Positions 21,982-31,650 of a stretch of DNA of 64,000 bases are shown piece after piece (within the stretch, counting starts at the first letter, position 1; each line of letters starts with the position of its first letter). Both the position numbers and the translations under genes were made by a program. The stretch spans positions 547,997-611,996 of the forward strand of contig NZ_FNGS01000003.1 in the NCBI RefSeq assembly GCF_900103285.1, written 5' to 3'. Below the pieces are notes generated by a model. It saw only the letters and a list, made by a program, of their open reading frames with translations, was not told the origin of the DNA and did not search any database. The DNA comes from Siphonobacter aquaeclarae (lineage in GTDB: Bacteria > Bacteroidota > Bacteroidia > Cytophagales > Spirosomataceae).

Positions 21982-22686
21982 ATGAAAAAAATGTTCGCAA
22001 TGGCTCTTCTCGCAGTGAGCGTTGCCTTCTCTTCTGTGTATGCGCAGACTCCGGCGCCGGCTGCCGGCACGGAAAAACCGAAAAAGACCAAGAAGACGAC
22101 TGATACCGATGCAGCGGCCAAGGCCGAGAAGAAAGCAGCGAAGGAAAAAGCGAAAGCAGAAAAGGATGCCGCAGCCAGCGACGCTGAAAAGGCGGCGAAG
22201 GCCAAGGAAAAAGCCGACAAGAAAGCAGCCAAGGAAAAGGCCAAAGCCGATAAAGACGCTGCTGCTACCGAAGCGGAAAAAGCTGCCAAAGCCAAGGAAA
22301 AAGCCGATAAAAAGGCTGCGAAAGAAGCCGCTAAAGCCGATAAGGCTGCTGCAGACGCTAAGGCAGCTACCGACGCGGAAAAAGAAGCCAAAGCCAAGGC
22401 AAAAGCCGATAAGAAGGCTGCCAAGGCTGAAAAAGACGCGGCCGATGCCAAAGCCACCGCTGCCAAGGACAAAGCCGAGAAGAAAGCTGCCCGCGTCAGC
22501 AAGGCCGATGATACCAGCCCTGAAGCCGACGCCGGTACCCGTAAGAAAGTAGCCGGTGAAGACAAAGTGATCGGCAAGGATGGCAAAGGCCGGAGCATTT
22601 ACCTCGGTCCCCGCGGCGGTCAGTACTACATCAATTCCAACGGCAACAAAACGTACCTCGATGCCGATGCGAAGCTGAAAATCTAA
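21982..22686 (+). CDS. secreted Lys/Ala-rich repeat protein with C-terminal GPRGG domain
   Basis: The 234-residue protein starts MKKMFAMALLAVSVAFSSVYAQ, a Sec signal peptide cleaved near residue 21. Residues about 44-170 consist almost only of Ala, Lys, Glu and Asp in imperfect tandem repeats built on KAKEKADKKAAKEKAKADKD, which should form a long, very basic helix or coiled coil. The last 45 residues change character (RKKVAGEDKVIGKDGKGR, then GPRGGQYYINSNGNKTYL, starting near residue 209), which recalls the short GPRGG-xY-xxxxGxKxY module known from a small basic adaptor domain (PBCV-type). The protein is secreted and strongly cationic; a link to the cell wall, DNA or a polyanion is plausible but not shown. 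Long antisense and shifted frames here are composition artefacts. Confidence 0.8.
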   Translation: MKKMFAMALLAVSVAFSSVYAQTPAPAAGTEKPKKTKKTTDTDAAAKAEKKAAKEKAKAEKDAAASDAEKAAKAKEKADKKAAKEKAKADKDAAATEAEKAAKAKEKADKKAAKEAAKADKAAADAKAATDAEKEAKAKAKADKKAAKAEKDAADAKATAAKDKAEKKAARVSKADDTSPEADAGTRKKVAGEDKVIGKDGKGRSIYLGPRGGQYYINSNGNKTYLDADAKLKI

Positions 22687-22700
22687 GAGGTTTTCAGGTA

Positions 22701-22745
22701 AAGAAAGGAGCTGACTCGTTTCCGGGTCAGCTCCTTTCTTTTTTC
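22701..22745 (+). terminator. strong terminator after the Lys/Ala-rich gene
   Basis: A 15-bp perfect stem (AAGAAAGGAGCTGAC / GTCAGCTCCTTTCTT) with a 10-nt loop is followed by TTTTC. It starts 14 nt after the stop codon and abuts the first palindromic element. Confidence 0.9.
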
Positions 22746-22808
22746 TGTGCAGTCTGTGTTTTCTGTGAGCTGATTTATTTTTTCACAGACGACACAGACT
22801 GCACAGAA
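22743..22808. repeat. palindromic CTGTG element, copy 1
   Basis: Arms of 26 nt at 22743-22768 and 22783-22808 are inverted copies with two mismatches, enclosing a 14-nt T-rich centre. Each arm is three 9-nt units of the type KTCTGTGnn. It is the first of three elements in a tandem array of about 141-bp period. Confidence 0.9.
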
Positions 22809-22816
22809 AGTATATC

Positions 22817-22878
22817 ACAACCCGCACTGGTTTGAGCTGCCCTCAAGCGTACTACCCGGCAGTACCGGCATACAATCC
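22817..22878 (-). pseudogene. degenerate copy of the ggt 3' end (first)
   Basis: These 62 nt match the last 80 nt of the adjacent gamma-glutamyltransferase gene (23101-23180) apart from point changes and an 18-nt deletion. In the ggt frame they would read DCMPVLPGSTLEGSSNQ, against DCILVLPDGTLEGGSDP in the gene, with the conserved DPRGDD part missing. The fragment is too short to be functional and is part of the repeat array. Confidence 0.8.
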
Positions 22879-22882
22879 TTTT

Positions 22883-22951
22883 TTCTGTGAAGTCTGTGTA
22901 GTCTGTGAGCTGATTTAATTTTTTCTCACAGAAAACACAGACTTCACAGAA
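22883..22951. repeat. palindromic CTGTG element, copy 2
   Basis: Arms at 22883-22908 and 22926-22951 (26 nt, two mismatches) enclose a 17-nt centre containing CTGATTTAATT. As in the other copies, the right arm is followed by AGTATATC and then a ggt-like segment. Confidence 0.9.
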
Positions 22952-22959
22952 AGTATATC

Positions 22960-23021
22960 TTAACCCGCACTGGTTTGAGCCGCCCTCAAGCGTACTATCC
23001 GGCAGTACCGGAATACAATCC
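22960..23021 (-). pseudogene. degenerate copy of the ggt 3' end (second)
   Basis: A second 62-nt spacer differs from the first at about five positions and carries the same 18-nt deletion relative to the gene. In the ggt frame it reads DCIPVLPDSTLEGGSNQ. The shared deletion means the two copies come from one altered ancestor rather than from two independent duplications of the present gene end. Confidence 0.8.
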
Positions 23022-23024
23022 TTT

Positions 23025-23092
23025 TTCTGTGTAGTCTGTGTTTTCTGTGAGCTGATTTAATTTTTCTCACAGAAAGCACAGACTTCACAGAA
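23025..23092. repeat. palindromic CTGTG element, copy 3
   Basis: Arms at 23025-23050 and 23067-23092 (26 nt, two mismatches). The right arm ends 6 nt beyond the ggt stop codon, so on the minus strand this element is the first hairpin after the gene and could end or stabilise the ggt transcript. Confidence 0.9.
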
Positions 23093-23098
23093 AGTATA

Positions 23099-24859
23099 TC
23101 ACCAGCCCACACTGGTATCATCTCCCCGCGGGTCGGAGCCGCCCTCAAGCGTACCATCCGGCAATACCAGAATGCAATCCATCCGCCCGAGCGTACCGGC
23201 CTGCGGTTCAATTTTATAGCCTTTTGACCGGAGTTTAGCCAGTACCTTTTCAGAAAAAGCACCCTGCTCGAAGGTCGTCCTGTCGGGTAGCCACTGATGA
23301 TGAAACTTCAGGGCATTGACCGCTTCCTGCATGCTCATTCCGTGATCGATGACATTGACAATCGTTTGAAATACACTGGTGATAATCGTCGAGCCGCCGG
23401 GCGTTCCGACCACCATAAACAGCTTTCCGTCTTTTTCCAGAATAGTGGGCGTCATGCTCGACAGCATGCGTTTTCCCGGCTGGACAGAGTTGGCTTCCGC
23501 GCCGACGAGGCCAAATACATTGGGTACGCCGGGTTTCACGGCAAAATCTTCCATTTCGTCGTTCATCAGAAAACCGGCGCCGTTGACGACTACCCGGCTG
23601 CCATACCCGTTGTTGATCGTAGTCGTAATCGAAACTGCGGCTCCTTCTGCATCCACGACCGACAAGTGCGTGGTTTCGTTGCTTTCATACCCCGGAATAG
23701 CGCCGCCGGAAATCGCTTTTGAATCACTGGCTTTGTTCCAATCGAAATCACTCCAGCGTTTGGCGAGGTAGGCGGGTTCGAGCAGTTCTTTCGCCGGTAC
23801 TTTGAAAAAATCCGGGTCGCCGAGCCATTTGGCGCGGTCGGCATACACCCGCCGCTCGGCCTCGATGATTACCTGGGTAGTCGAATCCGAATGCCAGCCC
23901 CACTTTTTGAGGGGATAGGGCTCAACGAGCTTCATGAGTTGAACCAGCGCGATGCCTCCGGATGACGTCGGCGACATCGAAATAACTTTGTAACCGCGGT
24001 ACGTTCCCGTAATAGGAGTACGCCAGGCAGAATGATAGTCGTCGAGGTCTTTTTGCACAATCGGTGCTTTGGCTTTCGCCATTTCAGCAATCAGCAGTTG
24101 CGCTGTTTCGCCTTCGTAAAATCCGGCGCGGCCTTTCTCCTGGATACGCCGGAGGGTTTTGCCGAGATCTGCCTGAACATGCAGCTCACCGGTTTTCCAG
24201 ACGGTATCCACGCCGGCTTTCAGGAAATAGGGTTCGCCGGGGTTGAACTTCCGGATATCGGAACGGACGCGGTTGAGGCCTTTGGCTTCGTCGTCCGTAA
24301 GTGCTACGCCGTTTTCCGCGAGTTCGATGGCCGGTTGAATCACTTCTTTCCAGGAAAGTTTGCCAAACCGCTGGTGCGCCACGGCCATGCCGTCGACCGA
24401 TCCCGGTACCCCGCTGGCGGAATGCCCGAGCCAGGCCATGTTCGGAACAACGTCCCCCTTTTCGTCCAGGTACATGTCCCGGGAAGCCGCGTAGGGTGCT
24501 TTTTCCCGGAAATCAAGGGCGAAACTTTGCCCGGATTTATCCCGGAAAACCATAAAGCCGCCGCCGCCGAGGTTTCCGGCCGACGGGTGCACAACCGAAA
24601 GGGCGAAGAAGGTAGCGACCGCTGCGTCTACAGCGTTACCGCCTTTTTTCATGATTGCCGCGCCGACTTTCGAGGCCTCCGGGTGCGCGGACGCCGCCAT
24701 GACGTGCGGCTGAAATACGCCCTTTTTGTCAGAGATGAAAGGCTTGGCACCCGGATCGTCCGTGATGAAGGTATAGGCGCCTTTTGACGCAGACGGATTT
24801 TTCCGGCAACCGGCAACGGCCAGCAAAACGAACAATACAACAAAGGAAAGGTATCGCAT
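23099..24859 (-). CDS. ggt: gamma-glutamyltransferase, lipoprotein form
   Basis: The 586-residue protein opens MRYLSFVVLFVLLAVAGCRK, a lipoprotein signal with lipobox VAGC, so the enzyme should be anchored on the periplasmic side of a membrane. The N-terminal part has the family's GGNAVDAAVATFFALSVVHP and GNLGGGGFMVFRD segments. Autocatalytic cleavage is expected before the first threonine of TTHLSVVD (about Thr396), the nucleophile of the small subunit, and substrate-loop residues follow in NNGYGSRVVVNGAGFLMNDEM and PGKRMLSSMTPTI. It hydrolyses or transfers the gamma-glutamyl group of glutathione and similar peptides. The C-terminus DPRGDDTSVGW keeps the conserved DPR element. Two degraded copies of its 3' end lie in the repeat array downstream. 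Confidence 0.95.
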   Translation of the reverse strand: MRYLSFVVLFVLLAVAGCRKNPSASKGAYTFITDDPGAKPFISDKKGVFQPHVMAASAHPEASKVGAAIMKKGGNAVDAAVATFFALSVVHPSAGNLGGGGFMVFRDKSGQSFALDFREKAPYAASRDMYLDEKGDVVPNMAWLGHSASGVPGSVDGMAVAHQRFGKLSWKEVIQPAIELAENGVALTDDEAKGLNRVRSDIRKFNPGEPYFLKAGVDTVWKTGELHVQADLGKTLRRIQEKGRAGFYEGETAQLLIAEMAKAKAPIVQKDLDDYHSAWRTPITGTYRGYKVISMSPTSSGGIALVQLMKLVEPYPLKKWGWHSDSTTQVIIEAERRVYADRAKWLGDPDFFKVPAKELLEPAYLAKRWSDFDWNKASDSKAISGGAIPGYESNETTHLSVVDAEGAAVSITTTINNGYGSRVVVNGAGFLMNDEMEDFAVKPGVPNVFGLVGAEANSVQPGKRMLSSMTPTILEKDGKLFMVVGTPGGSTIITSVFQTIVNVIDHGMSMQEAVNALKFHHQWLPDRTTFEQGAFSEKVLAKLRSKGYKIEPQAGTLGRMDCILVLPDGTLEGGSDPRGDDTSVGW

Positions 24860-31546: not shown

Positions 31547-31556
31547 CCACAAAAAA

Positions 31557-31627
31557 TTCTGTGTATTCTGTGCTTTCTGTGAGATAAATCTTTTTTGTTT
31601 CTCACAGAAAGCACAGAATACACAGAA
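31557..31627. repeat. palindromic CTGTG element, copy 4 (perfect arms)
   Basis: Arms at 31557-31583 and 31601-31627 are exact 27-nt reverse complements around a 17-nt centre. Each arm is three 9-nt units (TTCTGTGTA, TTCTGTGCT, TTCTGTGAG). It is the same family as the three copies near 22.8-23.1 kb. On the minus strand the hairpin runs into TTTTTTGTGG, so it could also terminate transcription from the sprA side. Confidence 0.92.
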
Positions 31628-31650
31628 AGAAACAAGCCGTCTTCAAAACA

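Follow-up and report, generated by a model that had tools for sequence, protein, structure and literature searches.

The DNA behind ggt, the gene for gamma-glutamyltransferase, in this Siphonobacter genome carries a tandem array that is very probably the product of local duplication: a hairpin from a lineage-specific dispersed family came to lie behind ggt, was tandem-duplicated together with the end of the gene, and the copies then decayed. Two spacers that align to the ggt 3' end, the junctions shared by all units, and the state of the ggt locus in relatives carry this reading. They also make an exchange of gene ends unnecessary to explain the array.

Structure of the ggt array and origin of its spacers

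Within the window, by which we mean the whole 64,000-nucleotide stretch that was analysed, TRF reports a tandem array at 22738-23116 with a period of 143 and a score of 614. The left arms of its three hairpins begin at 22742, 22882, and 23024, giving steps of 140 and 142. Three hairpins with 28-bp arms, together with two spacers, make up the DNA between the ggt stop codon and a terminator-like hairpin (Table 1), and AGTATATC stands directly after the right arm of P1, P2, and P3. An earlier note on this DNA had described palindromes of the TTCTGTGnn type at steps of 140 and 142, each right arm followed by AGTATATC as in the gene, and had proposed palindrome plus AGTATATC plus gene end as the repeat unit. 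The arm starts and the TRF array agree with the first point, all three units with the second, and the shared junctions and spacer alignments with the third. The loops of P2 and P3 are reciprocal best matches, and that of P1 is tied between P3 and a hairpin at another locus (L191). In all three hairpins the nnn triplets are unequal between the two arms, and they also differ among P1, P2, and P3. As a separate observation, the convergent gene, which is Lys/Ala-rich, contains a 90-bp tandem repeat of 2.5 copies at 22123-22343.

Table 1. Coordinates of the array components, the flanking features, and a related hairpin elsewhere in the window
Feature	Position	Strand	Remarks
Terminator-like inverted repeat	22700-22741	.	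Common to ggt and its convergent neighbour (21982-22686)
Hairpin P1, distal to ggt	22742-22809	.	Arms 22742-22769 and 22783-22809; RNA fold -41.2 kcal/mol, ggt strand
Spacer A, decayed ggt 3'-end copy	22810-22881	-	Score 72 and E 2.1e-7 to the ggt end
Hairpin P2	22882-22952	.	Inverted repeat; fold -42.0 kcal/mol
Spacer B, second decayed ggt 3'-end copy	22953-23023	-	Matches spacer A at 93% across 70 nt
Hairpin P3, adjoining ggt	23024-23093	.	Inverted repeat; fold -37.6 kcal/mol
Source segment: AGTATATC junction, ggt stop codon, and final codons	23094-23180	-	
ggt (gamma-glutamyltransferase)	23099-24859	-	586 aa; stop at 23099-23101
Further single hairpin of the same family	31556-31628	.	

The proposal that the spacers are degraded copies of the ggt 3' end is well supported. 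Local alignment of spacer A to the ggt end scores 72, compared with a best value of 30 among 300 single-letter shuffles, and a search of the own genome with spacer A returned low E-values at the ggt locus only (2.5e-30, 2.1e-23, and 2.1e-7; next best 0.38). The same local-alignment test gave no significant match for DNA flanking the array on its opposite side. An in-frame TGA is kept in spacer A and not in spacer B. The 18-nt in-frame deletion said to be shared by both spacers fits better, as seen in spacer A, as one 17-nt and one 1-nt gap, and is therefore in frame in net length only.

The direction of change was read from 45 aligned columns. At 4 of these, neither spacer matches ggt; the four orthologues all side with ggt at 3 of the 4 and are split two to two at the remaining one. 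Spacer A alone differs from ggt at 3 more columns, where at least three of the four orthologues side with ggt. Differences to which a direction can be assigned are thus changes in the spacers, and, as judged from these columns, the comparison shows that the ancestral end stayed on ggt and that the spacers are changed copies. The end attached to ggt likewise retains the DPRGDD/DPRADD/DPRADN tail of the Siphonobacter orthologues.

Orthologues of ggt were present in the five genomes of the same genus that were searched, in one of them as two pieces. In L059, L060, and L061, relatives that share the convergent neighbour, a terminator-like hairpin comes directly after the ggt stop and there is no array palindrome; the two in which ggt has different neighbours (L077 and L033) are likewise without the array. 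The ggt gene in two pieces (G004:C197:184350-186109) consists of overlapping parts in different frames, one of them with in-frame stops, and is either a pseudogene or a sequencing frameshift.

These data bear on the two histories offered in the earlier note, in which a palindrome behind ggt was duplicated together with the gene end or, alternatively, recombination between palindromes supplied a new 3' end and the spacers are older ggt ends that were displaced. The order and orientation of the spacers behind ggt would fit displacement. However, the end now attached to ggt agrees with the four orthologues and, wherever a direction could be read, the change lies in the spacers, so that we consider displacement highly unlikely. 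Joint duplication of palindrome and gene end is favoured by the homology of the spacers, the structure of the unit, and the polarity of the changes.

A plausible course for this joint duplication begins with one hairpin of the family, absent at this position in the relatives, which would have landed between the ggt stop and the terminator. It would then have been tandem-duplicated together with the last 60 to 80 nt of ggt, to which the spacers are homologous. Because the junction between hairpin and copied gene end shares, by eye, only about GGA as microhomology with neighbouring DNA, this first duplication was probably an illegitimate slippage or template switch prompted by the hairpin. The further unit may have been added by unequal exchange or slippage, which could have used the approximately 70 bp of homology between hairpins. 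The copies would have decayed while the ggt-attached end, as the polarised columns indicate, was kept.

A dispersed family of TCTGTGnnn hairpins

Beyond what the earlier note had reported, the palindrome behind ggt is a member of a dispersed family, and other arrays exist in the genome. The family hairpin measures about 70 bp, and each of its arms consists of three 9-nt boxes, TCTGTGnnn. The arm TTTCTGTGnnnTCTGTGnnnTCTGTGA has 93 exact matches and 184 matches with at most one mismatch in its own genome (6.19 Mb, 19 contigs), compared with 0 for a reversed control; when at most one mismatch was allowed, 0 matches were found in 58 relatives, among them five congeners. A pattern for the whole inward hairpin has 85 matches in the own genome, a number that includes pairs spanning array spacers, and 0 in 394 other Bacteroidota genomes. 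The family is lineage-specific and REP-like. A literature search on the repeat, its host, and possible partners returned nothing on a TCTGTGnnn hairpin family.

For an account of position, we read 84 hairpins at 70 loci with up to three arm mismatches allowed; at least one genome copy (C7:407231) lies outside this set. With array members counted separately and genes called by a simple codon score, 0 of the 84 hairpins lie within a called gene and 81 have a gene 3' end on one side or both, no farther than 40 nt away in 51 cases and no farther than 10 nt in 39. Both neighbouring genes were called for 78 hairpins, of which 39 lie between convergent genes and 1 between divergent genes. By comparison, 6 of the 30 intergenic gaps of at least 40 nt in the window are divergent and 6 are convergent. 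The loops are variable, mostly A/T-rich, and contain no gene. The same arms also occur paired in the opposite polarity (15 of the 84 hairpins, at L003, L005, L006, L145, L160, L168, L171, L179, and L182), and several such hairpins have T-runs before the stem and A-runs after it, as in a two-way terminator.

Arrays with spacers of their own are found at L003, with units of about 129 nt; at L182, where four hairpins form units of about 134 nt; and at L190 and L006. Neither the spacer at L182 nor that at L190 significantly matches the roughly 300 nt of DNA on each flank, and that at L003 has two weak A-rich matches nearby. Among the arrays compared in this way (L182, L190, and L003; L006 contains a run of N and was left out), a spacer derived from a gene end was therefore seen only at ggt. 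Runs of N occur within the arrays at L006 (about 1595-1916) and L190 (about 1118-1397), where assembly failed, and the actual copy numbers there may thus be higher.

The same runs of N, as signs of assembler difficulty, would lend some credit to the idea that the tandem copies at ggt were made or miscounted by the assembler. The units at ggt are not identical, however, since the spacers are 93% alike and the arm triplets differ, which makes an artefact very unlikely, even if the units may have been miscounted. Dissimilar hairpins stand side by side at L002, L163, L155, and L195, which, together with the different triplets of P1, P2, and P3, could suggest three separate insertions at ggt rather than duplication of one hairpin. 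We rejected this explanation as extremely improbable because loop type, AGTATATC junction, and spacer are common to the units, and because independent insertions would not copy the gene end.

Within the hairpins of the family, the variable bases of the two arms stay complementary. Across 69 inward hairpins, two of which (at L190) extend over a 54-nt array spacer, 379 of the 414 variable nnn cells are complementary between arms, compared with 214 on average and 255 at most in 2000 shuffles in which right arms were re-paired, a procedure that leaves the relatedness between hairpin copies in place. Identical triplets are found on both arms of 48 of the 69 inward hairpins and of 0 of the 3 at ggt, and arm matching at the ggt array is weaker than across the family. 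The 35 mismatched cells comprise 11 G-T, 9 A-C, and 15 others. G-U is thus barely ahead of A-C, although selection working mainly on RNA should favour it, and there is no clear sign that RNA pairing is selected. A route by which template switching from one arm to the other writes compensatory changes has been described (PMC8794818). Arm complementarity in this family is probably maintained by such DNA template switching between the arms.

The mismatch counts also enter into the question of whether the ggt array is under selection as a regulatory 3' UTR, in which the stems would stabilise ggt mRNA or stop read-through into the convergent gene. The predicted stems are strong, from -37.6 to -42.0 kcal/mol, and the family as a whole is located at gene 3' ends. 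A ggt mRNA would have three stable stems before the terminator, and these might slow 3'-5' decay. Nevertheless, the relatives manage without the array, the spacers decay, and G-U pairs (11) scarcely exceed A-C (9) among the 35 mismatched cells. On the ggt strand, moreover, P1 through P3 are followed by A-rich DNA with no T-run, the T-run belonging to the separate hairpin at 22700-22741; they thereby differ from an intrinsic terminator, in which a T-run comes after the stem on the transcribed strand. We therefore judge selection for such a function improbable, and duplication followed by decay remains our reading of the array.

Comparison with known repeat systems

As described in the accessible portion of one report, REP elements and BIME-like clusters of the GTAG and CGTC super-families are short, dispersed extragenic palindromes near gene ends that are partly species-specific, with GTAG REPs linked to a RAYT gene and CGTC REPs lacking a dedicated transposase (PMC3733652). 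With respect to the features given there, the TCTGTGnnn hairpins resemble REPs in being dispersed, extragenic (85 matches; 0 of 84 in a called gene), close to gene ends, and partly species-specific, and in having alternative complementary stem bases. They also resemble REP/BIME in forming tandem clusters with flanking DNA (the ggt array, L003, L182, L190, and L006). Unlike the REP stems described there, which are mostly 6-9 bp, the TCTGTGnnn stem is about 28 bp and is built from three 9-nt boxes. No GTAG/CGTC or other conserved tag was found outside the arm ends (base counts over the 16 nt flanking either end of 69 inward hairpins). One Y1_Tnp (RAYT-type) gene was found in the genome, and its 3.3-kb locus contains no TCTGTGnnnTCTGTG with up to two mismatches. 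Membership in the REP family proper was rejected because there is no terminal tag and no RAYT link. The array at ggt is an ordinary local duplication, though of hairpins without a GTAG/CGTC tag or RAYT link.

MITEs are inverted repeats present in many copies, without coding capacity, and flanked by a target-site duplication. The TCTGTGnnn hairpins are likewise non-coding inverted repeats of high copy number, but they show no sign of target-site duplication: the longest word common to the two flanks has a mean of 3.45, compared with a mean of 3.46 and a maximum of 3.67 in 100 sets of re-paired flanks. A search for a mobilising partner, which covered Y1_Tnp, identified no transposon with the ends of these hairpins. 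Because flank sharing is no higher than in re-paired flanks, target-site duplication was rejected.

The intervening sequence of Coxiella 23S rRNA, with its S23/IVP gene, is a palindromic element according to the available part of its description (PMC4990558). The likeness to that element, as far as described, lies in the palindromic form, and IVP and GxxExxY genes of relatives stand between inverted arms. The ggt hairpins differ from it in having short, gene-less loops and in their place, which is downstream of protein genes instead of within rRNA.

Integrative elements such as e14 in icd replace the 3' end of a gene. The ggt locus resembles such cases in having a second, diverged copy of the gene 3' end beside the gene. 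In contrast to them, it has no integrase or element body, its tandem unit, at about 142 bp, is too short to hold a gene, and the native end remained on ggt.

GxxExxY and IVP genes between inverted arms

A gene was scored as bracketed when inverted arms on both sides of it passed a shuffle threshold (at most 2 of 200 single-letter shuffles). For GxxExxY (PF13366) in relatives, 27 of 31 loci were tested among about 90 matches listed, the 4 cut by contig ends being left out, and 19 of the 27 were bracketed (L202-L208, L211, L215, L216, L218-L221, L223, L225-L227, and L229), with the gene of the own genome counted as a miss. For IVP (PF05635), 22 of the 28 loci tested were bracketed (L139, L140, L233, L234, L237, L238, and 16 others), 3 of 31 having been left out. 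None of 62 control genes was bracketed (0 of 30 ggt and 0 of 32 window genes). Several arm matches are short or of low complexity (L216, L245, and L254). Each bracketing arm consists of short repeated words, which vary between elements. A CACAGAG ahead of the gene together with a CTCTGTG after it was found at 9 of 27 PF13366 loci, 0 of 28 IVP loci, and 0 of 30 ggt loci, with 39 boxes compared with 1.6 in shuffles. In a plasmid collection, 2 of 8 GxxExxY loci were bracketed (Bernardetia and Bacteroides), both with a CACAGAG box.

The one PF13366 gene found in the own genome (L142) has a TCTGTGnnn hairpin 3 nt behind its stop; the gene lies beside the hairpin, not inside it, and has no bracketing arms. 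Given that 39 hairpins lie within 10 nt of a gene 3' end, this adjacency is only suggestive. Neither of two IVP loci in the own genome has a TCTGTG arm. The GxxExxY protein gave no tblastn match in a phage collection, and the available portions of the literature on GxxExxY held nothing concerning palindromes. A scan of viral contigs returned 24 stretches with the arm pattern, mostly of the CTCTGTG-type variant among the 11 inspected. Three phage-like contigs (L272, 14.1 kb, from IMG/VR; L276; and L283) carry repeated CTCTGTG/CACAGAG arms and hairpins, which in L272 lie between open frames. In several Siphonobacter genomes, IVP and GxxExxY genes were also seen close together or adjacent to genes that by eye resemble those of the leucine pathway (leuD-like and isopropylmalate-dehydrogenase-like; L140; L214, L226, and L229; G003:C26:174650-176041; G004:C58:93786-95150), a neighbourhood that is a possible insertion hot spot.

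The TCTGTGnnn hairpin family may be linked to GxxExxY nuclease-like genes. A broader proposal, which we regard as unlikely though conceivable, is that the TCTGTGnnn hairpins, which lack a gene, represent a class of mobile hairpins in a non-autonomous or degenerate state. Elements of this class would have short tandem boxes as arms, and in the complete form the loop would hold a gene for GxxExxY (PDDEXK_3) or for IVP. Opening of hairpins at gene 3' ends by the nuclease, followed by template-switch repair, would disperse the hairpins, overwrite one arm with the other, and sometimes copy the adjacent gene end, as at ggt. Against this proposal, the box spacing of CACAGAG at PF13366 loci differs from the 9-nt period of the hairpin family. 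In addition, one CACAGAG-type arm consensus (up to three mismatches) was found in 3 of 59 genomes, with a single match apiece, so that such arms are not high-copy there.

The ggt array is a snapshot of a palindrome drawing the end of a gene into a tandem repeat, and such an array can mislead annotation. Its wider interest lies in the hairpin family, which has dozens of copies in one species and none in the five congeners searched, and whose arms stay complementary though their variable bases are not the same in every copy. If the tie to GxxExxY holds, two widespread gene families would become testable as parts of mobile hairpins.
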